A DNA stretch of 64,000 nt from Clostridia bacterium. Lineage in GTDB: Bacteria; Bacillota; Clostridia; Christensenellales; Aristaeellaceae. Position 1 is the first letter of the stretch. Each line of letters starts with the position of its first letter. The notes beneath the pieces were generated by a model. The model was not told the origin of the DNA and did not search any database. It was given only the letters and a program-made list of their open reading frames with translations. Shown here piece after piece: positions 2 to 16,857 of this stretch. Location: positions 1-64,000 of the forward strand of contig JAFXUZ010000004.1 of the NCBI GenBank assembly GCA_017524725.1, written 5' to 3'. Both the position numbers and the translations under genes were made by a program.

Positions 2-3000
2 TTGAAGAGCCTGCTTTCCTGGACCGGCGACGCGGTAAGCTATACCCTGCAGGGCTTTTCCGCCCTGCTGGCCCCCACCTATACCGCCATCGGCGTGCAG
101 TTGGAAGAGGGCCTGGAAGCGCTGGGCGCCTACCGGGTGGACAGCCTGCTTGGGAACATCCTGAACCTGCTTTACGTGAAGGTCTCCGCCCAGGTCGACC
201 TGGGCGAAAGGGAGAGCGTGGCCGTATACAGCGTAAAGGACGGGGAGATCGGCGAACTGCTTTCCGAAGGGACGGACAGCGGCAGCATTGCCCTGGGGAA
301 TGCCGAGGGCTTTGCCGTGGTGAAGGACAGCGGATACCGCCACATGACGTTTGACCTTGGACAGGTGACGTTGGACGGCATGATGCCCAAGGCTGCGGAA
401 GCGGAGGCAACGGATGTCGCCCGGGAATATGCCGATTTTGCCAAAGAGGGAACTGTACTTGCGGCTTATGATATCAGCATTGGTGAAAACGGTGAAAAAT
501 ATCAGCCGGACGCTGATCATCCTGTGGATGTAAGTATCGATGTACCTGATATCGAAGAAGTGGTAGAGCTCCATATATGGCACATCAAAGAAGACGGAAC
601 AACAGAAGAAATATCGAATTTTACAGTCGAAGGCAGCCATGTTCGTTTTACTTCTGCCGGATTCTCGGTTTATGCCATTGTTGATGGCGATGAAAGCACG
701 CCGGGTACGGTATCACGCAAATATTCTTTCTTCACGGATGATACCTTCGGAACGCCGTACACATTTGTCAATGAAAATGGCGTTACAACGTCTGTTCAGT
801 ATGTCACTGAAGACGGTACACTGTATAATCCGGATTCTCCCGGTGAAGTGGAAGGCAAGCAGTTCATCGGATGGGCGGCACAGGATGGTACAGTTATTAT
901 CCCGGCAGGTGAAGAAGGCGTCACGATCACCGGGATCACCGGGACTAATGAAGAGGTCAAGCTTTATCCGAGATATGATGATGTTTATTATCTGGAATAC
1001 TATGATGAACATAACCATATTTTCAAAACAGAAAACTCTGCCAACGGGGATTTTACTGTCGATTCCAATGGTAATGCCAGCCTGAAGGACGGAGAAGATT
1101 GGCGTATCGTGTACCAGCCCGACAGCAGTACACAGGCATTCCTTGGGTGGACGACAAATCACAGTGCAGCAGCGGGTTCTGAAGTTTCAACAGTGGACTT
1201 CACGGATGCGGCTGATAAAATAATCAAATTGTATCCGGTCAAGGCTGATGTTTATTGGATCCACTTTGATAAAAATGACCTGGTTGACGGGGAGTCTACC
1301 GGAGCATTGTATGTTGCGCCTAAATATGTTTTGATGGGAAATTCATATAACGATCAATACAACAATGCGGAATTGCCGACTACGACCCGCCCGGGATATA
1401 GATTTGTCGGTTGGTACTATAAAGATAATAATGATAATTTAACCCTTGCATTTGACAAATCAGCTGTTCTTTCCGGTGACGTTACTGTTTATGCTAAGTG
1501 GGAGCCGGCTGCACAGACATATACGATCATTATTTTGCAGCAGGCGATCTCAGATTCTGTGATTGCGACTGATGAAGAAAAAATGTACGATTACAGGGAT
1601 TCGTACACCATTGAAGGTGTTACGGGTGGTTCTGCGACAATTTCCGACGAGTATAAAGGACTGAATATTTCAGGTTTCCGATACGATAGGTGTGACTCCG
1701 ATACAACAATTGCGGCAGATGGCAGTACAGTCCTTAATGTTTATTATGATAGGGAAATTGTTACATTTAACTTTTATATTTACGGTAAACCCGGAGTAGG
1801 GGGATATTACTATGGTGTAGATAATAATAAAGCCAATAGTGATTACAATAATAATACTACCATATATGGTTTAGACGCAAATGGAAATAAAGTTTCATTA
1901 ACACGTCGTCAGACATCAACAATAACAACACATTATCTATCACAATCAGATAATGGAGCGGAATATACTGGAGATATATATGAGAGAAGTGGTTATTCTT
2001 TCGTAATTGCTTCGTTACCCTATGATACCGGTAAACAATATTATTATATCTCTGGTTGGTATGCTTACACATTAACATGGGTTACAAAAAATATACCAGT
2101 ATATTCATGGTTTTTAAACGGTGAAGAGTATAGCGGCCCTTTATATGAGTACAAAAATGTAAATAATGGTAATACGAATCAGTGGTATGTTTACAAAATC
2201 ATGTCAGGTCTTTATGGCAGTTCGCTTAATGGAGAATGGCCCGCTAGCGATGGCTATTGGTGGTATTCAGGATATAATAATCAAAATCAAGGTTCTGGCA
2301 CCCGGACCACAATGCTTGACGCTTTTCTTCCGACCAGTAATGATATGACCGTAAATTTTTATGGTTCTAAAGCAAACGGTACTACTAAAATCAGTTTCTA
2401 TCAGCAGAATATTGATGATGAAGGATATACTTTAGCCAATGAAGTAACATCCGCAAATGCTGGTTTTAACCTTTCAGATAAGTATAACGGTTTTACATTG
2501 GTTTCATATCGTACATTACGTAGTAGTCGTTGGAGCGAGTGGATAACAGTCGGAGAATTAATGGAAAATAATGGTAATTATTATTATGATGCCGATCCCT
2601 ATACCAATGGATATCAGAATGTTTCCTCAGGTTACAGCGAATTGGAGATCCGTTTTAAACGGAATAAATATACTATAGATTATCTTGATGGATTCAGTCA
2701 TAGCAATGCTAACCTCGGCTCAGTGGACGCTTTGTTTGGAAAGCAGTTGTCTGAGTACGACAGAGCTGATCCAGGAGTAACACATGAAGGATACAAGTTT
2801 ACAGGATGGTATACAGATCCGGACTGTAAGACCCTGTTTGATTTTTCAAAAACAATGCCTGCGAATAATATTGCGTTATATGCGGGGTGGGAAAAACTGA
2901 AATACAGGGTTTGGATCCAGCCAAATGGTGGTGTACTTTCAGAAACAGAGTCCACTTACTTTAGAAACGAGTGGGGTCAACTGATCCAGTCGTATGACGA

Positions 3001-4549
3001 TGTGGAAACTACCGGCCGAAACTATTATGAGGACGAAGCGGGTGAATACAGCTATGTATATATCTGTGACCCTTCAAATGTTGATCTGCCGCGTGCGGCA
3101 TACTATAAAAAAACTACTGATTTAAGCCCTAGTGCTCCGTTTGTAAAGAAAAACGAAGACGGGACCACGGTAACTGTCTATTACGATGAAAGAGCCCATA
3201 CGGACGGTAAACATTATAAACAACAGCAGAATGTGTATCAGTTCGTCGGATGGTATAAGGTTGGCGGAACGATAAGCGAGGATACGCCGCCGGAGATCCG
3301 TGAAAGCGATGAGCTGACCCTGTGGAATTTTAATACCCCTGTCACGGAAAATACTGCTATCCGTGCCATATGGAAGCGAGTGGGTTCGTTCAGTGTCAGC
3401 TATGACGCCAATATGTATGATGAAAACGGAACAGAGATTTTGGTACCTGGAGCGACCGGAACAGTGGTTCCGAATCAGACAGAATACACTTACGGCGATC
3501 TTGCGCAGGCCATTGCAGGCGCATCCCCGACCTTGATCCCGGAGAATTACACATTTGTGGGATGGAAAACACCCGCCGGCGAAACAATTCAGCCTGACGA
3601 TGTTTTCACCATTCATTCGGCGCTTGCAAAATTGGAGAGCGGCGCCGGAACAACTGATCCGAAATATGTGTATACGCTTACTGCGGTTTACAAGCAGATC
3701 GGGACCACGAGCATAACCTATGATATCAACTGTCCGAACGGTTCGATGGTAACAAGCGGACAATTGACGGATTATGGATCGCAGGCGGGGAATACGCAGA
3801 CCACTACGGGTAATAATACCATCAGCGATCTGCTGGTCAACGGCGCGGTCGTTCTATCAGACGGATCCGGTTTTGCGGTCAGTGGTGGGTATAAGCTGAT
3901 CGGATGGAGCGATAAGCCCATTGATCCGACAGCTGCAGGCTATGACATTAAGCTTGAGAACGGTGCCTTCACCGGTACGATCCCCAATGAAACAACGCTT
4001 TATCATCTCGGCGGAACATACGGTGTAGACGGTGACAGCAACACTTTATGGGCAGTGTGGGAAAAAGTTGAAGAAGTGACCCTCACGCTGAAAAAACTTG
4101 TGACCGGAGCCATGGGAGACAGGACAAAGGAGTTTACCATTACCATAAATATATCTGATCCCGAAGATGTAAGCTATACCGTTACGAAGAATGGGACTTT
4201 GCTTGCGATAACTGACAATTCGTTTACGATAAAGGATAATGATACTGTTGTGATCGGCGGATTGCCTGTAGGAACAGTGATCACCCTTACCGAAAACGAC
4301 AATCAGGGAGGGGTCTACACCAAGACTTGGATGAAGAAAAACGAAACGACACCTTCGTCCGATAACAACAGTCTTACAATAACGATGACAGATGATTTTG
4401 AGTATACCCTTACAAATTATCTTCCTGCTGTTGCGCCCACCGGTTACCGTGTAACCGTTACTCCTTACCTGATGATGCTCCTTGCGGGCGTTGCGCTGCT
4501 CCTGCTGCGCGCAAGGCGCGCGGCTGAAAAAGGGGGTGGTGCGGTTTGA
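2..4549 (+). CDS. Giant InlB-repeat surface protein, pilus-tip-like, sortase-anchored (5' partial)
   Basis: Open from the window edge, so the true start and signal peptide are probably upstream. The protein (about 1515 residues visible) is rich in Listeria-Bacteroides (InlB/Flg_new) repeats, recognisable by the pattern G-Y-x-F-x-G-W followed by a K-W or G-W ending (for example FVGWYYKDN..YAKWEP near residue 480 and FTGWYTD..YAGWEK near 940). A Cna-B/DUF7601-like domain follows near residues 1360-1470. The C-terminus has a variant sorting signal APTG, a hydrophobic stretch and a basic tail (RARRA). It is likely a wall-anchored adhesin or pilus tip displayed outside the cell. The first ~440 bases and the last ~110 are GC-rich, whereas the interior is markedly AT-rich. 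The major pilin gene follows 365 bases downstream. Family assignment is fairly sure; ligand unknown. Confidence 0.85.
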   Translation: MKSLLSWTGDAVSYTLQGFSALLAPTYTAIGVQLEEGLEALGAYRVDSLLGNILNLLYVKVSAQVDLGERESVAVYSVKDGEIGELLSEGTDSGSIALGNAEGFAVVKDSGYRHMTFDLGQVTLDGMMPKAAEAEATDVAREYADFAKEGTVLAAYDISIGENGEKYQPDADHPVDVSIDVPDIEEVVELHIWHIKEDGTTEEISNFTVEGSHVRFTSAGFSVYAIVDGDESTPGTVSRKYSFFTDDTFGTPYTFVNENGVTTSVQYVTEDGTLYNPDSPGEVEGKQFIGWAAQDGTVIIPAGEEGVTITGITGTNEEVKLYPRYDDVYYLEYYDEHNHIFKTENSANGDFTVDSNGNASLKDGEDWRIVYQPDSSTQAFLGWTTNHSAAAGSEVSTVDFTDAADKIIKLYPVKADVYWIHFDKNDLVDGESTGALYVAPKYVLMGNSYNDQYNNAELPTTTRPGYRFVGWYYKDNNDNLTLAFDKSAVLSGDVTVYAKWEPAAQTYTIIILQQAISDSVIATDEEKMYDYRDSYTIEGVTGGSATISDEYKGLNISGFRYDRCDSDTTIAADGSTVLNVYYDREIVTFNFYIYGKPGVGGYYYGVDNNKANSDYNNNTTIYGLDANGNKVSLTRRQTSTITTHYLSQSDNGAEYTGDIYERSGYSFVIASLPYDTGKQYYYISGWYAYTLTWVTKNIPVYSWFLNGEEYSGPLYEYKNVNNGNTNQWYVYKIMSGLYGSSLNGEWPASDGYWWYSGYNNQNQGSGTRTTMLDAFLPTSNDMTVNFYGSKANGTTKISFYQQNIDDEGYTLANEVTSANAGFNLSDKYNGFTLVSYRTLRSSRWSEWITVGELMENNGNYYYDADPYTNGYQNVSSGYSELEIRFKRNKYTIDYLDGFSHSNANLGSVDALFGKQLSEYDRADPGVTHEGYKFTGWYTDPDCKTLFDFSKTMPANNIALYAGWEKLKYRVWIQPNGGVLSETESTYFRNEWGQLIQSYDDVETTGRNYYEDEAGEYSYVYICDPSNVDLPRAAYYKKTTDLSPSAPFVKKNEDGTTVTVYYDERAHTDGKHYKQQQNVYQFVGWYKVGGTISEDTPPEIRESDELTLWNFNTPVTENTAIRAIWKRVGSFSVSYDANMYDENGTEILVPGATGTVVPNQTEYTYGDLAQAIAGASPTLIPENYTFVGWKTPAGETIQPDDVFTIHSALAKLESGAGTTDPKYVYTLTAVYKQIGTTSITYDINCPNGSMVTSGQLTDYGSQAGNTQTTTGNNTISDLLVNGAVVLSDGSGFAVSGGYKLIGWSDKPIDPTAAGYDIKLENGAFTGTIPNETTLYHLGGTYGVDGDSNTLWAVWEKVEEVTLTLKKLVTGAMGDRTKEFTITINISDPEDVSYTVTKNGTLLAITDNSFTIKDNDTVVIGGLPVGTVITLTENDNQGGVYTKTWMKKNETTPSSDNNSLTITMTDDFEYTLTNYLPAVAPTGYRVTVTPYLMMLLAGVALLLLRARRAAEKGGGAV

Positions 4550-4914
4550 TCGATTGGGTTACGGCCCGGACAGTGCCCCGGGCCCGCGGTAAACCGCCGC
4601 CCATCGGCATGAACGCCCGCGGAGAAGGGCGGGCAGGCCGGGCGAGGGGGGACCCCCCGCCGGCGCGGAGCTTCCCCGGATGGGAACGACCTTTTCGAGG
4701 AGGTGACGCGCATTGAAAGCGTTCGTCACAGGGACGGCAGGTGAGGCCGGCACCGTGTGACCGAATACCGGAGCGAACGGACAGCGCTTTTGACCGCCCC
4801 TTGGGGACGGCAGAAGCGGCAGGGACCGACCCGCGAAGCTTTCGCGGCAGGGCCACCGGAATGTGGCGGAAACAAATAACTACGTCCGATAAGGACGGAA
4901 AAAGGAGAATGGAT
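4550..4914 (+). other. GC-rich intergenic spacer between tip-like protein and major pilin
   Basis: No convincing gene. It contains a 6-bp GC hairpin (4615-4634, no T-run) and an almost ideal Shine-Dalgarno (AGGAGGTGA, about 4697-4705). The latter sits 7 bases before a TTG codon that opens a 15-codon frame (4713-4760), which could be a leader peptide or a gene remnant. The pilin's own ribosome-binding site AGGAG (4903-4907) fixes its start at 4915. No promoter with both good boxes was seen. Confidence 0.5.
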
Positions 4915-6297
4915 ATGTTGAAAAAGATCAGCGCATTGCTTCTGGCACTCGCCATGGTGATGAGCCTGGCGAGCGTCGCCTGGGCGGCGGATGCTGTTCA
5001 GTTAACAGACGGTGAAATCGGTGGCAGCGTTTCATTTGCAACCGATAATCCCCAATCTCAGGGGAAGACTATCAAGATCGCTAAAGAGCTGACGGTTTTT
5101 AATGTTAATGAAACTACCATTAATGCGCCGACCATAAGCTATACGTACGCGATCACTGCCGGCTCTGCTAATAAAAGCATCACCGATGCTACGTCGGATC
5201 ATGCGAACGGCACTGCGGTTACTGTAAAAACGAAGGCAGGTGTTCAGCCTGAGAAAGTGACTCTGACAGGAACTTCCACTAATACCATCGCCTGGACTCC
5301 AACTGAAACTGTTACCGCCAGCGATGATGGTACAGCAAACATCAAATACCTGACGATCGATTTCTCTGATGTTTTCTTTGGTGCGGCAGGCGTATACCGT
5401 TATGTTCTTACCGAAACACTGCCTACTTCATATGCTGCTTGCGGTGTTACAGAAACAACCAGCACTGAGAATCCCCATGTCCGCTATCTTGATGTCTATG
5501 TCCGTCCGGCTCCCACTGGCTTTACAGATGGTACTGCAACCGCTGATTGGGATATTTATGGTTATGTTTGTTTGCTCGAGAATGAGGAAATTACAGATGG
5601 CGGCGACACCGCGACGACCGGCGCTGTCAAGACCAACGGATTTGTCGCAGGAACAAATGACGGCACTGCGTACCTTGCGGACCAGTACTATACCTATAAT
5701 GTGACAGTCAGTAAGACTGTTACCAATGATAACTACGCTAAGGCGACCCATCTGTTCCCGTTTACCGTAATCTTTACAAACGCTACTGTAACTCAGCCTG
5801 TTGATATCATCGGTCCTGCTGAAGTAACAGGGACAAAAGAAGGATGGACTGATCCTGTGTCTGCAGCACTCTCTGCAGGTACGACAAAAGGTATCGTCAA
5901 GATCAAAGACAGCGCCTCTGTTAAGTATATCGGTATTCCCAATGGTACTCAGGTTGAAGTCTATGAAACAAATGATGTTCCTGGCGTGACTTATCAGGTA
6001 ACCACAGTAACTGATAAAGGGACTCCTGCGATTGATAAGGCTGTGATTTCCGGTACAACTCCCGATGCAGCAGAAGCCCAGACCACAAAGGCTGATTATC
6101 AGTCTACTAAAACAACTATCACTACTACTGTTGATACAGACGATGATGTGGACCACACCATCGAGGTCGACAACAACCTGCAGCTCATTTCCCCGACCGG
6201 CGTGACCCTGCGCATCGCTCCTTATGCCCTGATCCTGTTCGCGGGCATGGCCCTGCTGCTGGTCAGCCGCCGCCGCAAGGCTGTGGTGGAAGAGTAA
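4915..6297 (+). CDS. Major pilin-like protein with Spy0128-type isopeptide domains and SPTG sorting signal
   Basis: 460 residues. I start at ATG 4915 because AGGAG lies 7 bases upstream; the ATG at 4909 is too close to it. A Sec signal peptide (MLKKISALLLALAMVMSLAS, cleavage after AWA) leads into two Ig-like domains. The first carries the streptococcal-pilin isopeptide pattern GVYRYVLTET (an E-box-like segment) and the second has VEVYETNDVPG. The C-terminus has SPTG, then a hydrophobic helix and RRRKA, the layout of a sortase substrate. Its tail resembles that of the upstream giant protein (PTG, five or six residues, then APY or TPY). Probably the shaft subunit of a covalently linked pilus. 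The gene interior is AT-richer than its two ends. I saw no classical YPK pilin motif. Confidence 0.82.
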   Translation: MLKKISALLLALAMVMSLASVAWAADAVQLTDGEIGGSVSFATDNPQSQGKTIKIAKELTVFNVNETTINAPTISYTYAITAGSANKSITDATSDHANGTAVTVKTKAGVQPEKVTLTGTSTNTIAWTPTETVTASDDGTANIKYLTIDFSDVFFGAAGVYRYVLTETLPTSYAACGVTETTSTENPHVRYLDVYVRPAPTGFTDGTATADWDIYGYVCLLENEEITDGGDTATTGAVKTNGFVAGTNDGTAYLADQYYTYNVTVSKTVTNDNYAKATHLFPFTVIFTNATVTQPVDIIGPAEVTGTKEGWTDPVSAALSAGTTKGIVKIKDSASVKYIGIPNGTQVEVYETNDVPGVTYQVTTVTDKGTPAIDKAVISGTTPDAAEAQTTKADYQSTKTTITTTVDTDDDVDHTIEVDNNLQLISPTGVTLRIAPYALILFAGMALLLVSRRRKAVVEE

Positions 6298-6437: not shown

Positions 6438-7133
6438 ATGCTGCAAAGCAACGAAAACAACGCCCCGGCGAAGGAAACGCCGGATCCCCAAAAAGCCGAT
6501 GAAAAGACGCAGCGGGAAAAGCTGCACAGGCGGCACATGCGGGCACTGAAGGACCTGCTGGTGCGCCTGGGCCTGCTGCTGCTGGTGATCTACATCCTGT
6601 TTTTCCATCTGGTGGGCCTCACGGTGATGCCCAGCGGGGACATGAGCCCCCGCGTCGACACCGGGGACCTGGTGATGTATTACCGGCTGGATAAGGACGC
6701 CAAGGCCCAGGACGTCATCGTGTTTGTGAAGCCCACCGCCGCCTTGGACGCGGCTTTCCGGGACAACGTGCCGGTGCAGGCCCCTCCCCGGAACGAAAGG
6801 GGCTGGTGGCGGAAGACCCTGGACTTTTTGGGATTCCCGGATAAGGAAATGTCCCTGTTCGTCAGCCGCGTGGTGGCGGCCCCCGGCGACACGGTGGAGG
6901 TCACGGGCGGTCACCTGATGGTGAACGGCAATGCCATGGTGGAGCCCAATATTTTTTATCCCCTGACGGAATACGAGGGATTTGTGGAATATCCTTTGAA
7001 GCTGGGGGAAGGACAGTACTTCGTGCTGGCGGACCACCGCACGGACGGGAAGGACAGCCGGTTTTTCGGCGTAGTTGAAAAGGACGAGATCCTGGGCACG
7101 GTGATCACCATCGTGCGCAGGAACAACCTGTAA
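6438..7133 (+). CDS. Signal-peptidase-I-like protein lacking the Ser-Lys dyad (SipA-like pilus assembly factor)
   Basis: 231 residues: a charged cytoplasmic N-terminus, one membrane helix (about residues 39-62) and an S26 peptidase fold. The catalytic box that is normally P-S-G-S-M-x-P reads PSGDMSP, putting Asp68 where the nucleophilic Ser belongs. The usual K-R of the second box reads FVSRVVAAPGD, putting Ser143 where the general-base Lys belongs. The remaining family boxes (GDLVMY, LADHR..DSRFFGVV) are intact. In Streptococcus pyogenes pilus loci the SipA protein likewise lost its dyad (Asp and Gly replacements) yet is needed for pilus assembly. By position, between pilin and sortase, this is likely a functional counterpart rather than a peptidase. 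ATG 6438 is preceded by AAAGGA. Confidence 0.85.
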   Translation: MLQSNENNAPAKETPDPQKADEKTQREKLHRRHMRALKDLLVRLGLLLLVIYILFFHLVGLTVMPSGDMSPRVDTGDLVMYYRLDKDAKAQDVIVFVKPTAALDAAFRDNVPVQAPPRNERGWWRKTLDFLGFPDKEMSLFVSRVVAAPGDTVEVTGGHLMVNGNAMVEPNIFYPLTEYEGFVEYPLKLGEGQYFVLADHRTDGKDSRFFGVVEKDEILGTVITIVRRNNL

Positions 7134-7199
7134 GTGATCAACAGCCGCTTTTTTGCAAACCGAAATATCAGATTGACCCGGAACGAAAGGAGGCGCGGC

Positions 7200-10100
7200 A
7201 TGGCAGACCATGATGATCTGAAAAATCCTGAGCCCCATGCGGCCCCAACGAAAACATTAACGGACAAAGTGATCGAACTTGCGCTGAGCGCCGGCGGCGG
7301 GGCGGTGACCCTGGTTTCCGGCCTGCTTGCCGCGGCGCTGATCATGTATTCCGGCTACGTGCTTTACGATACCTTTGCCACGGAGCGGGCGGCCTCCTCC
7401 AGCGCGTGGGACCTTCTGCAGTACCGGCCGGAGATCCTGGAGAATCCGGAAGCTTCCCTGGACCCCTCCGCCCTGGCGGCGATCAACAGCGATTACCGGG
7501 CCTGGCTGACGGTGTACGATACCGCCATCGATTATCCCGTGGTGCAGGGCAAGGACGATTATTATTACGCCTACCATGATATTTACGGGGAAAGCAGCCT
7601 GACCGGCGCCATCTACCTGGCCGCCGGCAACAGCCCTGATTTTTCCGATGACTATAACCTGGTGTACGGTCACCATATGGACAACGGCGCCATGTTCGGC
7701 GGTCTGGACCATATGTCCGGCAGCGAGACCGGCGTAATCATCGCCGGGAACATGATTTATGACGTAAAGTTTTTTGCGGTCGTAAATACGGATGCTTATG
7801 AGCATCGGATCTATAATGTGGGCGACCGCATGAACGATGTGCTGGACTTCCTGCGCTCCGGCGGAGAAGGCGGTGTCGGCGTCGGTACCGAGGTGATCTA
7901 TTTTAACGAGGAAGCCGCCGCGGACGCCGAAAAGCTGATTGCCCTCTCCACGTGCTTCGATGTGACCACAAGCGGCCGCCGGGTCGTCATCGGCAAGATG
8001 ACACCCCGGGTGATCACCAAGGAAGTAACGGTAACCAAGGCTTGGGAGGACAATAACGACCAGGACGGCATCCGTCCCTCTTCCATTGCCGTTACGGCCA
8101 ACGACGGCACCCGGGCGGTGCTGAAGGCCGAAGAAAACTGGACCGTCACCCTGACGCTGCCGAAATATGACAACGCGGGCGAGATCAGATATACCTGGAC
8201 CGAGGACGCTGTGCCCGAGGGTTACAAACTTACCGGGAACAAGACGGAGGGCGACTCTACCACCCTGACCAACACCCACGAGCCGGCTGTGACCGAGGCC
8301 ACCGTGAAAAAGGTTTGGAACGATGGGGAGGACCAGGACGGCATCCGGCCCGCGTCCCTCGCCGTGACCCTCAGCAACGGCACCCCCGTGACGCTCAGCG
8401 AGGACAACGGCTGGACAGCCACCGTGACGGACCTGCCCAAGAATGCCGGCGGCGTGCCCATCGAATACGCCTGGACCGAAGCGGAAACAGAGGGCTACAC
8501 CCTGACCGACACCTTCGTGGACGGCACGGTGACCACCCTGACCAACACCCACGAGCCGGCTGTGACCGAGGCTACCGTGAAAAAGGTGTGGAACGACGCG
8601 AATGACCAGGACGGCATCCGTCCCGCGTCCCTCGCCGTGACCCTCAGCGACGGCACCGAGGTGACGCTAAGCCCGGAGAACAACTGGACAGCCACCGTTC
8701 CGAGCCTGCCGGTGAACGCCGGCGGCAAGCCCATAGAGTACACCTGGACCGAAGCGGGCATAGAGGGCTACACCCTGACCGGCACCTCCGTGAACGGCAC
8801 GGTGACCACCCTCACCAACACCCATGACCCGGCTGTCAAAACCGTTACCGTAACAAAGGTCTGGGACGACGCAGACGACCAGGACAGCATCCGTCCGGGG
8901 GCCATCACCGTGACCCTGAACGCCGACGGCGAGGCGATGCGGACCGTGACCCTGTACGAAGCGGAGGGCTGGTCTGTGACCGTGGAGGATCTGGACGTGT
9001 ACGCGGCGGGTAAGGAGATCGCCTATACCTGGACCGAGGACCGCGTGCCCGACGGGTACGCCCTTACGGGGATCGTGACAAACGGGGACAGGACCACCGT
9101 CACCAACCGGCACGATACCGATACCACCGTGGCCACCGTGGTCAAAGTGTGGGACGACGACAATAACCGGGACGGACTGCGGCCCGACGGGGTCACGATG
9201 GTCCTGTACGCCGATGAACAGCCCGCGGCCGGGATCGACCCGGTGATCCTGAACGAGGGCAACGGATGGACTGCTACCCTGAACGGACTGCAGATGAACG
9301 CGGACGGGAAGGAGATCGTCTACACCTGGCAGGAGATCCCCGTCCCGGATGGCTATGCCGCGGACATCAAACGCGACGGCACCGTGACGACCGTCACCAA
9401 CAAGCACATACCGGATAAAGCGGACCAGACCGTGACCAAGGTGTGGGACGACAACAACGACCAGGACGGCATCCGCCCCGACAGCGTCAGGGCGACCCTG
9501 CTGGCCGACGGCGAATTTGTGACTGAAGTGACGCTGGACGAGACCGGAGAATGGTCCGCGGCGGTGAAGGACCTGCCCGTCAACGCGGGGGGCAAGGCCA
9601 TCGCATATACCTGGACCGAAGACGTTCCGGAAGGCTACCAGGCGAAGGTATCCGCCGGAGAAACGGCCGGGACCGCCGTCATCACCAATACCCACACGCC
9701 CGAGACCGCGACCCTCACCCTGAAAAAGGTGTGGAACGACGACAACAACAGGGACGGCGTCCGCCCGGCAAGCGTGAAGGCGACGCTGTACGCCGACTGG
9801 GAAGAAGCGGCGCGGCTGACCCTGACCAAAGAGAACAACTGGACGGCCTCCACCGGGCCGCTGCCGGTGTACGCGGGCGGGAAAGCCATCGAATACACAT
9901 GGGAAGAGGACGCGGGCCCCTATTACGACCTGACCGGAATCGACACGGCGGACGGCGTCACCACCCTGACCAACACCCACACGCCGGAAACGGTGACCGT
10001 TTCCGTACAGAAGGTGTGGAACGACGATGAGGACAGGGACCGGATGCGGCCCAGCTCCGTCACCGTCAGGCTGGTTGCTGACGGCACGGAATTCACCAGG

Positions 10101-13100
10101 GTATCCCTGAACCAGGCGGGCGGCTGGAGCGCTTCCTTCGAAGGGCTTTATAAGAACACCGACGGCAAGCCGATCGCCTATACCTGGTCGGAAGACCCGG
10201 TCACGGGCTATGAATGCGCAAGCAGTCCGGATAAGGACGGAGACCCGTACCGTACCGTGCTGACCAACACCCACGAAATCGCAAAGGTCACGCTGACCGT
10301 TGAAAAGGTGTGGGACGACGACAACGACCGGGACGCCAAACGCCCCAGCGCCCTCACCGTGACCCTGTACGCCGACGGGAAGGAAGTCCGGACGGAGGAG
10401 CTGACCGCGGAGAACGACTGGAAGGCTGAGATTGAAGTCCCGGCGAATGAAAAGGGTGAACCTATCAGATATACCTGGGAAGAAAAAGGCGTGCAGTTCT
10501 ATACCCTGGGAGGAATGGAAACTGTAGGTACAGGGACTGTAATTACCAATATACATGTTCCGGCACTGACAAGGAGGACTGTAGTTAAGGAATGGGATGA
10601 CAACAACGATCAGGATGGGATTCGGCCCAAGTCCGTGTCAGTGTGGCTCATGGCCGATGGAGAGCATTTACAGGAAATTGTCCTGAACGAAGAAAACGGC
10701 TGGACCTATACGGCAGATAACCTGTATGTATATGATCAGGGAAGGAGCATCATCTATTCATGGGATGAGATACAGCCGGAAGGGTACGATAGGCCACATT
10801 ATTCCAGCAATGCCAACATTACCACTATTATTAACAAACATGAATCTGAAAAGCAGACCTTGTCCGTTGCTAAGGTATGGGATGACTGCAACGACCAGGA
10901 CGGCATCCGTCCTTCGAGCCTGCCGGTGACCCTGCTTGCGGACGGCGAAAAGGTCGGCACCGTGACCCTGGACGCCGGGAACGGCTGGATGGGCTCCGTC
11001 GCGGATCTGCCGGTGAACGCGGTCGGGAAGGCCATCGCCTATACCTGGGACGAAGGGAACGTTGAGGGCTACAGCCTGAGCGGCAGTGTCACCGGCGGCA
11101 CGAACACCGTGCTGACCAACACCCACAAGACTGAGGTCACCGTGGCTACGGTCACGAAGGTGTGGTTGGACGACGATAACCGGGACGGCATCCGTCCTGC
11201 GAGCGTCATCATGACCCTGTCCAATGGGACACAGGTCACCCTGGACGAAAACAATAACTGGACGGCTACGGCGGAAAATCTTCCGAAGTACAAGGACGGG
11301 CAGGAGATCGCCTACACCTGGACCGAAGGCGCCATTGAAGGCTACGAACAGACCGGCAGCGATACTGTCGGCACGGTGACCACCATCACCAATACCCACA
11401 GCATCGAGACCACCTCGGCGACGGTCGCCAAGGTGTGGGACGACGATAACGACCGTGACGGCATCCGTCCTGCGAGCGTCGTCATGACCCTGTCCGACGG
11501 CACGAAGGTCACCCTGGACGAAAGCAATAACTGGACGGCCACGGTGGACGGCCTGCCGAAGAACATGGACGGGCAGGAGATCGCCTACACCTGGACCGAA
11601 GACGCCGTTGAAGGTTACGAGCAGACCGGCAGCGAGACCGCCGGCACGGTGACCACCGTTACCAACACCCATGACGCTGCGAAGCAGACCCTGAGCGTCA
11701 CCAAGGTGTGGGACGACGGCAGCGACCAGGACGGCGTGCGTCCCGCGAGCCTGACGGTGACCCTGCTTGCGGACGGCGAAAAGGTCGGCACCGTGACCCT
11801 GGACGCCGGTAACGGCTGGACGGGATCTGTCGCGGACCTGCCGGTGAACGCGGTCGGGAAGGCCATCGCCTATACCTGGGACGAAGGGAACGTTGAGGGC
11901 TACAGCCTGAGCGGCAGTGTCACCAGCGGCACGAACACCGTGCTGACCAACACCCACGAGACCGCCAGCACGGTCGCGACGGTCACCAAGGTGTGGCTAG
12001 ACGACGATAACCGGGACGGCATCCGTCCTGCGAGCGTCGTCATGACCCTGTCCGACGGGACGAAGGTCACCCTGGACGAAAGCAATAACTGGACGGCCAC
12101 GGTGGAAAATCTTCCGAAGTATAAAGATGGGCAGGAGATCGCCTACACCTGGACTGAAGGCAATATTGAAGGCTACGAGCAGACCGGCATCGGGACCGCC
12201 GGCACGGTGACCACAATTACCAATGCCCACAGCATCGAGACCACCTCGGCGACGGTCGCCAAGGTTTGGGACGACGATAACGACCGGGACGGCATCCGTC
12301 CTGCGAGCGTTGTCATGACCCTGTCCGACGGCACGAAGGTCACCCTGGACGAAGGCAATAACTGGACGGCCACGGTGGACGGTCTGCCGAAGAACGAGGA
12401 CGGGCAGGAGATCGCCTACACCTGGACCGAAGACGCCGTTGAAGGTTACGAGCAGACCGGCAGCGAGACCGTCGGCACTGTGACCACCGTTACCAACACC
12501 CATGCCGCGGCGAAGCAGAACCTGAGCGTCACCAAGGTGTGGGACGACGGCAGCGACCAGGACGGCGTGCGTCCCGCGAGCCTGACGGTGACCCTGCTTG
12601 CGGACGGCGAAAAGGTCGGCGCCGTGACGCTGGACGCCGGGAACGGCTGGACGGGCTCCGTCGCGGATATGCCGGTGAATGCGGTCGGGAAGGCCATCGC
12701 CTATACCTGGGACGAAGGGAACGTTGAGGGCTACAGCCTGAGCGGCAGTGTCACCAGCGGCACGAACACCGTGCTGACCAACAGCCACAAGACTGAGGTC
12801 ACCCTGGCTACGGTCACCAAGGTGTGGCTGGACGACGATAACCGGGACGGCATTCGTCCGAAGAGTGTCGTCATGACCTTGTCCAATGGGACGGAAGTTA
12901 CCCTGGATAAGGATAATAACTGGACGGCCACGGTGGAAAATCTTCCGAAATATAAAGACGGGCAGGAGATCGCCTATACCTGGACCGAATGCGCCGTCGA
13001 GGAATATGAACAGACCAGCAATGAGACCGTCGGTACGGTGACCACCATCACCAATACTCACAGCATCGCGACTAAGTCTGTGACGGTAGTAAAGATATGG

Positions 13101-14222
13101 GATGACGGTGATAACAAAGATAGTATCCGGCCTGCAAGTGTCATGGTGACTGTGAACGGCGGAGATGTTACCCAAAGTGTAGAGCTGAAAGAAGAGAATG
13201 GCTGGACAGCTACTGTGGAAGGCTTGCCTGTACACCGGCACATAGGTGGAATCATAGGTTATGAATGGTCTGAAACAGTCGTTCCACCGGGCTATACCCT
13301 TATGCCCAGGAAGGTTGAAGGCGATGTAACGACCTTAACCAATGTTCATGAGATTGAAATGAGACCCCTCACCGTCCAGAAGGTCTGGGACGACAAGGAC
13401 AACCAGGACGGCAAGCGGCCGAAGGAGGTCACCGTGATCCTGAAGGCCGACGGGACCGAGATCGACAGGTTCAAGCTGAACGACGGTAATAAGTGGACGG
13501 CGGCTACGGAACCCCTGCCGGTATCCGCGGATGGCAAGGAAATCTCCTATACCTGGAGTGAAGAGAAAGTGCCTGCGGGATACACCCTGACCGTGAAGCA
13601 CGATCCGTCTACCGGGAAGACCGTACTCACCAATACCCACAAGCCCGAAACGATCCGCCTGACGGTGAAGAAGGAATGGAAGGACAGCAATTCCTCCAAA
13701 CGGCCGACTTCCGTCACGGTGTACCTGGTCAGCGGAAAAGAGCAGACCAGGTATACCCTGAGCCAGAAAGAAAACTGGACCAGGACGGTGGAGGTGCCCA
13801 GGTACCAGGACGGCAAGGAGATCCGGTATTCCTGGAAGGAAAGCAGCGTGTCCGGGTATAGTACCTCCGTCAAGACCCAAGGAAACGTGACGACCATCAC
13901 CAACACCAGGAAGAGCAGCGGCGGAGGCGGAGGCGGCGGTACGCCCAAGACCTACACGCTGACGATCAAGTACGTGTATGAGGACGGCAAGACAGCCTCG
14001 AAGACCTACACCGCCACCTACCAGAAAGGCAAGACTTACAGCGTCACCAGCCCGGTCATCGACGGTTATACCGCCTCCGAAAAGACGGTGAAGGGCACTA
14101 TGCCCGCAGAGAACGTGACCCTGACCGTGACCTATACCCGCAACGCCGAGCCGACTGCCGATCCCGATACGCCGCTGGGCTTCGGTGTGATCTACTTCAA
14201 CGTGGGCGACTGCCTGGAGTGA
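7200..14222 (+). CDS. Class B sortase fused to ~21 Cna-B domains and a MucBP-like C-terminus
   Basis: 2340 residues from ATG 7200, chosen because AAAGGAGG ends a few bases upstream; a GTG at 7134 in the same frame has no such site. Order: cytoplasmic N-terminus (1-32), membrane helix (about 33-57), class B sortase domain (about 70-270) with YPVVQG, YGHHM (His158), LSTC (Cys252) and RRVVIG (Arg260/261), then about 21 tandem Cna-B repeats of roughly 90 residues each. The repeats have the pattern KVWDD..DGIRP..YTWTE..TNTH, whose Lys, Glu and Asn are those that form isopeptide bonds. A Gly-rich linker and a MucBP-like domain (about 2255-2315) follow, then the tail DTPLGFGVIYFNVGDCLE. There is no C-terminal membrane anchor, so the helix near residue 45 holds it to the membrane with the repeats outside. 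It is the only sortase in the window and presumably acts on the two upstream xPTG proteins. Confidence 0.9.
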   Translation: MADHDDLKNPEPHAAPTKTLTDKVIELALSAGGGAVTLVSGLLAAALIMYSGYVLYDTFATERAASSSAWDLLQYRPEILENPEASLDPSALAAINSDYRAWLTVYDTAIDYPVVQGKDDYYYAYHDIYGESSLTGAIYLAAGNSPDFSDDYNLVYGHHMDNGAMFGGLDHMSGSETGVIIAGNMIYDVKFFAVVNTDAYEHRIYNVGDRMNDVLDFLRSGGEGGVGVGTEVIYFNEEAAADAEKLIALSTCFDVTTSGRRVVIGKMTPRVITKEVTVTKAWEDNNDQDGIRPSSIAVTANDGTRAVLKAEENWTVTLTLPKYDNAGEIRYTWTEDAVPEGYKLTGNKTEGDSTTLTNTHEPAVTEATVKKVWNDGEDQDGIRPASLAVTLSNGTPVTLSEDNGWTATVTDLPKNAGGVPIEYAWTEAETEGYTLTDTFVDGTVTTLTNTHEPAVTEATVKKVWNDANDQDGIRPASLAVTLSDGTEVTLSPENNWTATVPSLPVNAGGKPIEYTWTEAGIEGYTLTGTSVNGTVTTLTNTHDPAVKTVTVTKVWDDADDQDSIRPGAITVTLNADGEAMRTVTLYEAEGWSVTVEDLDVYAAGKEIAYTWTEDRVPDGYALTGIVTNGDRTTVTNRHDTDTTVATVVKVWDDDNNRDGLRPDGVTMVLYADEQPAAGIDPVILNEGNGWTATLNGLQMNADGKEIVYTWQEIPVPDGYAADIKRDGTVTTVTNKHIPDKADQTVTKVWDDNNDQDGIRPDSVRATLLADGEFVTEVTLDETGEWSAAVKDLPVNAGGKAIAYTWTEDVPEGYQAKVSAGETAGTAVITNTHTPETATLTLKKVWNDDNNRDGVRPASVKATLYADWEEAARLTLTKENNWTASTGPLPVYAGGKAIEYTWEEDAGPYYDLTGIDTADGVTTLTNTHTPETVTVSVQKVWNDDEDRDRMRPSSVTVRLVADGTEFTRVSLNQAGGWSASFEGLYKNTDGKPIAYTWSEDPVTGYECASSPDKDGDPYRTVLTNTHEIAKVTLTVEKVWDDDNDRDAKRPSALTVTLYADGKEVRTEELTAENDWKAEIEVPANEKGEPIRYTWEEKGVQFYTLGGMETVGTGTVITNIHVPALTRRTVVKEWDDNNDQDGIRPKSVSVWLMADGEHLQEIVLNEENGWTYTADNLYVYDQGRSIIYSWDEIQPEGYDRPHYSSNANITTIINKHESEKQTLSVAKVWDDCNDQDGIRPSSLPVTLLADGEKVGTVTLDAGNGWMGSVADLPVNAVGKAIAYTWDEGNVEGYSLSGSVTGGTNTVLTNTHKTEVTVATVTKVWLDDDNRDGIRPASVIMTLSNGTQVTLDENNNWTATAENLPKYKDGQEIAYTWTEGAIEGYEQTGSDTVGTVTTITNTHSIETTSATVAKVWDDDNDRDGIRPASVVMTLSDGTKVTLDESNNWTATVDGLPKNMDGQEIAYTWTEDAVEGYEQTGSETAGTVTTVTNTHDAAKQTLSVTKVWDDGSDQDGVRPASLTVTLLADGEKVGTVTLDAGNGWTGSVADLPVNAVGKAIAYTWDEGNVEGYSLSGSVTSGTNTVLTNTHETASTVATVTKVWLDDDNRDGIRPASVVMTLSDGTKVTLDESNNWTATVENLPKYKDGQEIAYTWTEGNIEGYEQTGIGTAGTVTTITNAHSIETTSATVAKVWDDDNDRDGIRPASVVMTLSDGTKVTLDEGNNWTATVDGLPKNEDGQEIAYTWTEDAVEGYEQTGSETVGTVTTVTNTHAAAKQNLSVTKVWDDGSDQDGVRPASLTVTLLADGEKVGAVTLDAGNGWTGSVADMPVNAVGKAIAYTWDEGNVEGYSLSGSVTSGTNTVLTNSHKTEVTLATVTKVWLDDDNRDGIRPKSVVMTLSNGTEVTLDKDNNWTATVENLPKYKDGQEIAYTWTECAVEEYEQTSNETVGTVTTITNTHSIATKSVTVVKIWDDGDNKDSIRPASVMVTVNGGDVTQSVELKEENGWTATVEGLPVHRHIGGIIGYEWSETVVPPGYTLMPRKVEGDVTTLTNVHEIEMRPLTVQKVWDDKDNQDGKRPKEVTVILKADGTEIDRFKLNDGNKWTAATEPLPVSADGKEISYTWSEEKVPAGYTLTVKHDPSTGKTVLTNTHKPETIRLTVKKEWKDSNSSKRPTSVTVYLVSGKEQTRYTLSQKENWTRTVEVPRYQDGKEIRYSWKESSVSGYSTSVKTQGNVTTITNTRKSSGGGGGGGTPKTYTLTIKYVYEDGKTASKTYTATYQKGKTYSVTSPVIDGYTASEKTVKGTMPAENVTLTVTYTRNAEPTADPDTPLGFGVIYFNVGDCLE
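8018..13912 (+). repeat. Tandem array of ~21 Cna-B-encoding units (~270 bp each)
   Basis: Units begin at each VxKxWxD segment. I count 21 by eye, each ending in TNTH or a close variant. Units 2-3, 12-13, 15-16 and 18 are near-identical in parts; others are diverged. Units 10 (about 10501-10850) and 19 (about 13061-13370) use much more AT-rich codons than their neighbours. Confidence 0.85.
10851..13070 (+). repeat. Higher-order 831-bp repeat inside the Cna-B array (about 2.7 copies)
   Basis: Three consecutive Cna-B units form a block that recurs with an exact 831-bp period. AAGCAGACC/AAC at 10851, 11682 and 12513, and GCATCGAG at 11401 and 12232, fall in step. The third copy loses similarity where its third unit should begin, close to 13070. 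Confidence 0.9.
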
Positions 14223-14302: not shown

Positions 14303-16192
14303 ATGGAAAGGTTTTTCTTGAATTTGCCATCGGCCGCGAGCCGAAGGGGGCATTCTGATGATAAGCGCCGCCTGCATACCCGGCTCTGCGCCCTGATGGC
14401 AGCGGCAGCCCTTTTAGCCGTCCTTTTTCCGACAGCTTCTTTGGCACAGGAGGACCGCCTGGTGGTGGGCAATCCCACCCCGATGCGCGGGGAGTTCTTC
14501 ACCGAGCTGTGGGGGGACGCCACGTCGGACATCGACGTGCGGCAGCTGCTGCACGGATACGACCTGATCATGTGGGATGCTGAAGGGATCAGGTTCACCG
14601 TGGACCCGACGGTGGTCGTCGATTGGTCCTGGGAAGAGAACAAGGCGGGGGACCACGTGTTCACCTTTATCCTCAGCGACGAATTGATCTGGTCCGACGG
14701 GGAACAGATCACGGCATGGGATTATGCCTTCTCTTATCTCTTCTGCCTGTCGCCAGTGCTTGAGGAGATCGGCGCGCGGCCGCTCCGCATCGAGCCCCTG
14801 GCGGGTTACCGTGAGTACATCGAGGAAGGCGCGCCGCTTTACGGCGTCCAGGTGCCCTCCGACGATACCCTGGTGCTGACGCTGGACCATGAATACCTGC
14901 CGTTTTTCTATGAGATGGGCCTGCTGAGGTGCAATCCCTATCCCATTTCCGTGATCGCCCCGGGTGTGGAGGTCAGGGACGACGGCGAAGGGGTGTTCCT
15001 TTGCAACATCGAGGATCCGGACGGGGAACCGCTCTTCACGGCGGACCTCCTGCGCAAGACCGTCCTCGACCCGGAAACGGGATATATGTCCCATCCTTCC
15101 GTGGTTTCCGGGCCTTATATGCTGACATCCTGGGATGGGGTGACGGCTGAATTCGAGATCAACCCGTTTTACAAGGGGAACGCGGAGGGAGAATATCCTT
15201 CCATCGCGCGCCTCACCTATACCCTGGCCGAAAACGATACCATGATCGACGAACTGGTGGCCGGGGAATTCGGCCTTTTGAACAAGGTGACCCGGATGGA
15301 TACCATCATGGACGGGCTGGAAAGGATGTACGGTGAGGGTTATTCCGTGACCGACTATCCGCGGACCGGGCTTTTCTTCCTGAGCTTTGCGTGCGAGAAG
15401 CCCACGGTCACCTCCGCCGCGGTGCGGAAAGCCATTGCCTGGTGCATGGACAGGGACCAGCTGACGGCGGATTACGCCGGGGATTTCGGCGTGTGCGTGG
15501 ACGGCTGGTACGGCATCGGCCAGTGGATGTACCAGATCGCCTCCGGTGAGATCGCCGCCCCCAAAGGATGCGAGGGGATCGGCCTGGACAGCCTGGTCCA
15601 CTATGAGCCGGATCCGGATTCGGCCGCTTATATCCTGGAGGAGGACGGCTGGTTCCTGAACGCCGACGGCCTGAGGGAAAAGGACGGCGTGGTGCTGGAC
15701 CTGAAACTGCTTTATCCCGAGGGGAACAATATCGCCGTATCCCTCCAGGAGAATATGATCGACATCCTTCAGGAAGTCGGTATCCGTATAACGATGGAAG
15801 CGATCCCGATGGCGGACCTTTTGTCCCAGTGGTACCAACAGGAGGAACGGGAGGCCGACATGTTCTGCCTGGGCTCCAATTTCTATCCGGTCTTCGAACC
15901 TTCCGTGCACTTTAAGGCTGACGGCAGCTGGGCGTATACGAACCTTGTGGACAAAAAGCTTTACGACGCCGCCGTCGCTATGCGGACCACCCAGCCGGGA
16001 GACGTCGCGGGATATATGCAGAACTGGCTCAAATTCCAGGAGCGGTTCAACGACATCCTGCCGATGATCCCGATCTACGGCAACTACTATGTGGATTTTT
16101 ACACTTCCTATCTTGCGAACTACAGGGTCGAGGTAAGGATGACCTGGAGCGACGCCATCGTCGGCGCCTGGCTGGACTGGCCGGAGGAATAA
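14303..16192 (+). CDS. Family 5 extracellular solute-binding protein (peptide/oligopeptide ABC uptake)
   Basis: 629 residues. The N-terminus has a long basic stretch before a hydrophobic signal segment (about 29-46), with a cleavage site near SLA-QED. There is no lipobox cysteine, unusual for a Gram-positive binding protein. The mature part follows the SBP_bac_5 layout: VVVDWSWEENKAGDHVFTF, LIWSDGEQITAWDYAFS, then PSDDTLVLTL, the early core and AVRKAIAWCMDRDQL typical of OppA/DppA proteins. It should deliver peptides to an ABC permease, but no permease gene is adjacent. Seventeen bases downstream lies pyroglutamyl peptidase, which suggests a peptide-scavenging pair. ATG 14303 has AAAGGA upstream. 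Confidence 0.85.
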   Translation: MERFFLNLPSAASRRGHSDDKRRLHTRLCALMAAAALLAVLFPTASLAQEDRLVVGNPTPMRGEFFTELWGDATSDIDVRQLLHGYDLIMWDAEGIRFTVDPTVVVDWSWEENKAGDHVFTFILSDELIWSDGEQITAWDYAFSYLFCLSPVLEEIGARPLRIEPLAGYREYIEEGAPLYGVQVPSDDTLVLTLDHEYLPFFYEMGLLRCNPYPISVIAPGVEVRDDGEGVFLCNIEDPDGEPLFTADLLRKTVLDPETGYMSHPSVVSGPYMLTSWDGVTAEFEINPFYKGNAEGEYPSIARLTYTLAENDTMIDELVAGEFGLLNKVTRMDTIMDGLERMYGEGYSVTDYPRTGLFFLSFACEKPTVTSAAVRKAIAWCMDRDQLTADYAGDFGVCVDGWYGIGQWMYQIASGEIAAPKGCEGIGLDSLVHYEPDPDSAAYILEEDGWFLNADGLREKDGVVLDLKLLYPEGNNIAVSLQENMIDILQEVGIRITMEAIPMADLLSQWYQQEEREADMFCLGSNFYPVFEPSVHFKADGSWAYTNLVDKKLYDAAVAMRTTQPGDVAGYMQNWLKFQERFNDILPMIPIYGNYYVDFYTSYLANYRVEVRMTWSDAIVGAWLDWPEE

Positions 16193-16209: not shown

Positions 16210-16857
16210 ATGACCCGCAGAGTGCTGATTACGGGGTTTGAGCCCTTCGGAGGAAAACATACCAACGCATCATGGGAGGCGGTCCGCCGCCTGCCCGGCC
16301 GGGACGGGGACATAGAGATATGTCCCCGTCTTTTGCCGGTGGAATACCGGGAGGCCGGAAAGCGCCTGCTGGCGGCGGCGGAAGAGATAAAGCCCGATCT
16401 GATCGTCTGCACCGGCGTCGCCAGCGGCAGGGATGCGATCACCCCGGAACGCATTGCGGTCAACTGGCGCAGCGCCGCCATCCCAGACAATGCGGGCAGG
16501 ACAGCAGCGGGGGAAACCATCGATCCGGCCGGTCCTGACGGGATTTTCACCCGCCTTAAGGTGGAGGATATGGTACGGGACCTGCGCTCGGCAGGGCTGC
16601 CCGCCGCGGTGTCCTTCACCGCGGGGACCTTTGTGTGCAATGACGTGTTTTACCAGCTGATGCTTTACGGCCCGGACGTGCCCCGGGGTTTTATCCATGT
16701 GCCGACGGAGGAAAGGCTTTCAAGCGACAAATGCCGCGACGGACTGATGATATGCCTGAGGACAGAGTGGAGAGCGGAGAGTGAAGAGTGGAGAGTGAAG
16801 AGTGAAGAGTGGAGAGTGAAGAGCGGAGATATGCCGGCTGCGCCGGCCTTGGCCTGA
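16210..16857 (+). CDS. pcp: Pyroglutamyl-peptidase I (pyrrolidone-carboxylate peptidase)
   Basis: 215-residue cytoplasmic cysteine peptidase (C15) that removes N-terminal pyroglutamate from peptides. The catalytic triad is visible: Glu80 (ITPERIA), Cys143 (AGTFVCNDV) and His163 (GFIHVPTEE). The N-terminal ITGFEPFGG motif is standard. ATG 16210 follows GGGAGGG. It probably shares a transcript with the peptide-binding protein just upstream. The last ~35 residues (from EWRAESEEW) are encoded by a purine-rich minisatellite and have replaced the normal C-terminus, after all catalytic residues, so activity may survive. Confidence 0.93.
   Translation: MTRRVLITGFEPFGGKHTNASWEAVRRLPGRDGDIEICPRLLPVEYREAGKRLLAAAEEIKPDLIVCTGVASGRDAITPERIAVNWRSAAIPDNAGRTAAGETIDPAGPDGIFTRLKVEDMVRDLRSAGLPAAVSFTAGTFVCNDVFYQLMLYGPDVPRGFIHVPTEERLSSDKCRDGLMICLRTEWRAESEEWRVKSEEWRVKSGDMPAAPALA
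16764..16829 (+). repeat. Purine-rich minisatellite at the 3' end of pcp
   Basis: Seven-base units of the type AGAGTGG, AGAGTGA and GAGCGGA are repeated about nine times. They encode the SEEWRVK repeat at the C-terminus of pyroglutamyl peptidase. Confidence 0.85.

Follow-up and report, generated by a model that had tools for sequence, protein, structure and literature searches.

Pili of the streptococcal FCT-3/PI-2b kind are encoded by loci that in group A Streptococcus comprise the class B sortase SrtC2, SipA, Cpa, FctA and FctB, the gene of the basal pilin FctB lying after that of the sortase in FCT-3 and its product ending in an LPXTG-type signal by which SrtA anchors it. The pilins carry EVPTG and VVPTG motifs and are linked by the class B sortase with FctB as the base (PMC7900414), while SipA has lost its catalytic dyad (Asp48, Gly85) yet is essential for pilus polymerisation (PMC4049620). 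Here we report on a pilus locus in a 64,000-nucleotide stretch of DNA from a Clostridia bacterium of the family Aristaeellaceae (positions 1 to 64,000 of contig JAFXUZ010000004.1, hereafter the window) in which, unlike FCT-3, the sortase and the following subunit form a single chain without LPXTG on that subunit, and in which a conserved C-terminal tail and a binding-protein gene take the place of the LPXTG signal. The fusion is laid out as follows:

7134..14222, + strand: sortase-Cna_B-MucBP-tail fusion, 2,362 aa from the GTG start of the frame; the likely start is the Met at 7200
7290..7361, + strand: N-terminal membrane helix region (hydropathy)
7509..7997, + strand: class B sortase domain, H180 at 7671, C274 at 7953, R282 at 7977 (Pfam, NCBIfam, solved homologues)
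8019..13919, + strand: 21 Cna_B units (Pfam), each with the K/E/N isopeptide motif
13956..14138, + strand: MucBP domain (Pfam)
14163..14219, + strand: conserved C-terminal tail PDTPLGFGVIYFNVGDCLE (recurrence in the family)

An initial annotation of this DNA had described one uninterrupted frame in which a membrane helix is followed by a complete class B sortase domain (His158, Cys252, Arg260/261), about 21 Cna_B units and a MucBP-like domain, so that the enzyme would carry its own extracellular stalk, and had proposed a domain search as a check. That architecture stood in full, within a pilus locus and apparently undescribed; the annotation had overlooked that the C-terminus is a conserved tail and that this tail is linked to the gene downstream. 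The open reading frame (ORF) runs for 2,362 codons, Pfam finds one Sortase (126-288, E 2.7e-6), 21 Cna_B and one MucBP (2275-2335), and hydropathy gives a single strong helix, N-terminal, with the strongest hydrophobic segment beginning at residue 53. Residues H180, C274 and R282 counted from the GTG are His158, Cys252 and Arg260 counted from the Met at 7200, and the catalytic set is complete (His, Cys in an STC motif, Arg). The sortase scores 105.7 bits against the class B profile TIGR03064, which is below its equivalog cut-off of 153.75, and its nearest solved structures are the class B sortases 4y4q and 3psq (E about 1e-28 to 1e-26), with which it has the catalytic domain and the H/C/R residues in common; on profile and structures together the enzyme is classed as a predicted class B sortase. 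The isopeptide motif (Lys / Y-x-W-x-Glu / Asn-x-His(Arg)) is kept in 21/21 Cna_B units, all of which are by this motif predicted to form isopeptide bonds.

In order to look for the same order elsewhere, as the initial annotation had also suggested, we surveyed 308 genomes of the window's family together with an outgroup sample of 283 genomes of the class outside it. Within the family the sortases closest to that of the window (about 45% identity or more) nearly always lie within a longer frame, whereas related sortases in the outgroup stand alone at 232-375 aa, and the design was not found in a literature search, so that it can hardly be called routine. There are 19 complete sortase-to-tail frames of 438-2,362 aa, from 19 genomes and 8 genera, whose C-terminus is in every case this tail or a variant thereof; six further fused frames run off a contig end. 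Known class B sortases are proteins of ~200-300 aa, whereas the fusions have in addition a C-terminal extension, ~150 to 2,070 aa in length, that bears Cna_B, MucBP or both, plus the tail. That an assembly artefact joined two genes might be suggested by the repeats, by the use of metagenome-assembled genomes (MAGs) and by the several sister contigs that end inside the array. The frame, for which a break near 8000-8020 had been named as the finding that would undo the fusion, is however intact from sortase to tail in 18 other complete ORFs, one of which comes from an assembly of just 2 contigs and lies on a contig of 3.4 Mb. With the fusion recurring in independent assemblies an error of assembly or frame was rejected, and we consider it extremely improbable.

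The downstream binding-protein gene directly adjoins 18/19 of the complete tail-bearing fusions. As the number of Cna_B units ranges from 0 to 21 across the clade, stalk length is not an essential feature; what stays fixed is the sortase domain, the tail at the C-terminus and the neighbouring gene for the binding protein. In a tree of the sortases a 99/99 branch has all tail-bearing and contig-truncated fusions on its one side, with the exception of L251, which is weakly placed beside two long-branch rows; a single origin of the fusions is plausible, not proven, from these sequences. Three window-related sortases (L252, L253, L254) lie in SipA-bearing pilus loci and have a hydrophobic multi-helix C-terminal part in place of the tail. 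A sortase homologue with one in-frame TGA (G015:C12:28314-28982) adjoins a tail gene and a binding-protein gene and could be a decayed or split fusion. Separately, three class-B-like sortases (L012, L016, L019) have a long Thr/Pro/Ala-rich region ahead of the catalytic domain and a C-terminal extension with a GCGPTS motif which by eye has the look of a papain/C39-type peptidase, and may represent a second kind of sortase fusion in the family.

The tail has the consensus ..PLGxGxxxxNxG[DE]C[FLY]E-COOH, the window's last residues being PLGFGVIYFNVGDCLE. Among 150 family genomes the motif N-x-G-D-C-[FL]-[ED]-stop was matched exactly 24 times, in 23 of them, and a reversed-pattern control gave 0. 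It occurs far beyond the sortase fusions, at the end of otherwise unrelated and often giant secreted proteins (187 to >4,264 aa) which carry Cna_B, FctA, MucBP, InlB-like and other repeats and which, where complete, mostly start with a cleavable-type signal peptide. Synonymous sites in the tail codons vary freely, which argues that selection acts on the peptide, and this variation together with the use of all three stop codons excludes a DNA or RNA element near the stop codon. LPXTG and PEP-CTERM style signals are likewise short conserved C-terminal motifs on many unrelated surface proteins; the tail differs from them in having no membrane helix or basic end, by which a sortase-type sorting signal was ruled out, and in that its partner gene encodes a binding protein, not a transpeptidase. 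A tail common across the class was also rejected, since a looser pattern matched in 12/291 genomes vs several control matches, near chance outside the family. The tail and binding-protein pair is nearly confined to one Clostridia family whose named records are MAGs, among them sheep omasum and goat jejunum isolates and two of the RUG series, which we take to be rumen; the bacteria with the fusion or tail belong to an uncultured, mostly ruminant-gut family. One pair was found in another family of the order (L275, genome G044), where a gene with the tail-like end ..GNQVGECFE precedes that of a binding protein whose start, MACGSS, resembles a lipobox; judging by these sequences it may be an ancestral form of the pair, anchored by a lipid.

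The gene of the paired protein comes directly after the window's tail, and in the same order throughout the family:

14303..16192, + strand: dedicated secreted solute-binding protein, 629 aa (SBP_bac_5, OppA/AppA fold), with a signal peptide and no evident lipobox

Homologues of this protein are present in 89/150 family genomes with up to nine in one genome. Two genomes (G093 and G149) have up to nine matches each, and most of those read are tail/binding-protein pairs. Of the close homologues, 92 have an upstream ORF that could be read, and the tail is directly upstream of 89 of these, 77 by a strict pattern that allowed only Cys, Thr or Ser at residue -3 and 12 as evident variants judged by eye, with three lacking it; among 9 distant homologues with a readable upstream ORF there was none (0/9). 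The linkage of tail and binding-protein gene is therefore strong. On another view the tail could be a new covalent sorting signal, cut at PLG or at the C/T/S residue by an unidentified transpeptidase, with the binding protein merely co-transcribed. Residue -3 is Cys in 62/77, Thr in 10/77 and Ser in 5/77 of the strict matches, the only residues this pattern admits, with Met or Ala in two variants, and PLGxG is loosely like the P-T-G of pilin signals. We nevertheless regard such a signal as very unlikely, as no hydrophobic segment or basic residues follow the motif and the genes next to the pairs showed no processing enzyme that recurs, while the binding protein itself is nearly constant.

The predicted fold of the binding protein is that of AppA of B. 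subtilis and lactococcal OppA, binders of long peptides with which it shares the SBP_bac_5 fold and peptide-binding family. It differs from them in that its gene accompanies, almost without exception, that of a surface protein with the tail, in having no permease beside it in the window and in mostly lacking a lipobox. No lipobox was found in the window's protein and lipobox-like strings occur in 20/98 relatives, several of them spurious; most tail-linked binding proteins have none, and many more distant homologues outside the family are lipoprotein-like and without a tail gene. Since the window's genome encodes both Lgt and LspA, we rejected a family-wide loss of lipoprotein processing as the cause.

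Two further explanations follow from these features. The binding protein could be a dedicated secretion or folding chaperone that recognises the tail during export only, as its mostly missing lipobox despite Lgt and LspA and the range of its partners, from very large (>4,000 aa) to small proteins, might suggest. The tail is however the last part to come out, by which time folding of the body should be complete, and it is found even on proteins of only 187 aa; we find this role improbable. Alternatively the tail could be a C-terminal signal peptide that is cut off and then bound by the binding protein, in the manner of peptide-pheromone sensing, with the fusion reporting on pilus assembly. The tail is short and exactly C-terminal, the closest folds bind peptides of 9 residues and longer, and the pheromone binder PrgZ is among the profile matches. 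It is on the other hand conserved across paralogues and not diversified, no transporter or regulator was recognised beside the pair, and none of the ten window ORFs checked after the fusion has a permease domain, so that pheromone-like signalling is in our view unlikely. With a probability that we place just short of even, the tail, found on dozens of unrelated, often giant secreted proteins as well as on a pilus sortase, would be a docking peptide of the adjacent dedicated soluble OppA-type protein, the two forming a new kind of surface-display or surface-sensing module. A pyroglutamyl peptidase (Peptidase_C15, 16210-16857) starts about 18 bases past the binding-protein gene.

The setting of the fusion is that of a pilus locus, with three features upstream of it:

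2..4549, + strand: putative tip or ancillary adhesin, truncated by the contig start, with InlB-type repeats, DUF7601 and VAPTG + hydrophobic helix + RARR
4741..6297 (likely start 4909), + strand: putative backbone pilin with signal peptide, DUF7601 and ISPTG + helix + SRRRK
6438..7133, + strand: SipA-like signal peptidase homologue with the catalytic Ser changed to Asp (MPSGDMSP) and Lys to Ser (VSRVVAAPGD)

The SipA-like protein appears from these substitutions to resemble an inactive pilus chaperone, and the Ser-Lys dyad is also missing from the readable SipA-like homologues of related loci. Pilins with xPTG and a dyad-less SipA stand immediately upstream of the sortase, in the fused loci at large as in the window. 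As group A Streptococcus FCT-3 has this combination with a class B sortase too, we assign the window's locus to the streptococcal FCT-3/PI-2b kind of pilus locus, with a sortase of class B. The initial annotation had also suggested that the fusion might act on itself as a substrate. Taken in its usual meaning, this is not supported by the C-terminus of the fusion, near which there is no hydrophobic segment (hydropathy) and where a cell-wall sorting signal (xPxTG + hydrophobic helix + basic tail) is missing, while the two upstream pilins each have one.

A role for the stalk is suggested by five family loci in which the genes are separate (L069, L070, L071, L077, L079) and run in the order sortase, tail protein, binding protein. 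All of the four tail proteins scanned have FctA and most also Cna_B, and the split-locus tail protein would be a pilin-like subunit in the position of the basal pilin FctB. In these loci, as in FCT-3, a pilin-like subunit adjoins the sortase, and the LPXTG-type signal of a basal pilin is missing in the separate tail proteins and in the fusion alike. The stand-alone sortase at L077:9482-10312 itself ends ..LCAGECLE, like the tail of the protein that follows it (NVGDCLE). Of the roles that had been proposed for the stalk, that of pilus base is the best supported, by synteny. That it is a mere adhesive or spacer part of a membrane sortase is consistent with its variation from 0 to 21 Cna_B units; given the pilin-like subunit which the split loci have at that place, we doubt it and hold it to be unlikely.

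Our favoured explanation, to which we give somewhat less than an even chance, is that a pilus sortase has merged with its basal subunit and that the tail is recognised by the paired binding protein. Since the split loci put a pilin-like tail protein after the sortase, two neighbours becoming one chain is the simplest account. The sortase and the next subunit, in the basal pilin position, would thus have been fused into a single membrane-anchored chain, in which the sortase domain would join the ISPTG and VAPTG pilins, the Cna_B/MucBP part would serve as a rigid spacer or as the base accepting the pilus, and the sortase's own helix would hold both. The tail would mark the chain for recognition by the secreted peptide-binding protein of the next gene; this protein would grip the tail, so that the chain holds, or is held by, the binding protein outside the membrane, and the same pair would serve many unrelated surface proteins.

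Several points weigh against this explanation. In the fusion the tail is not needed for anchoring, because the sortase helix already anchors the chain, and the stalk showed no lysine that could be identified as receiving the pilus. In one of the fused frames (L234) the tail is shortened, and the stretch read downstream of it contained no binding protein. Divergence of tail and binding protein correlates (Mantel r 0.62, 0/999 permutations), which is not proof of binding because linked genes co-vary through co-inheritance. Docking was also not predicted in either of two AlphaFold2 models of tail plus binding protein, in which tail pLDDT was below about 35 and that of the binding protein mostly >90; these were natural in-frame loci read through the stop, with only 9 and 20 rows holding both parts and without the tail's free carboxylate, and the outcome weighs mildly against docking.

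No description of the fusion or the tail was found in the literature searched, which covered few subscription journals, so that novelty is provisional. Filifactor alocis FA1364 was rejected as a precedent, being an ordinary sortase with separate Cna_B substrates. The fusion, its tail and the adjoining binding protein point to an undescribed organisation of surface proteins, in which a pilus polymerase and, probably, the pilus-receiving subunit are on one chain, and through which the way class B sortase/SipA pili end and are anchored becomes directly testable. The tail/binding-protein pair is a possible source of a peptide-tag/receptor pair. Together with the binding protein that goes with it, the tail would represent a C-terminal surface signal distinct from those of the sortase and exosortase systems, of which single genomes in this family of uncultured gut bacteria have as many as nine copies.
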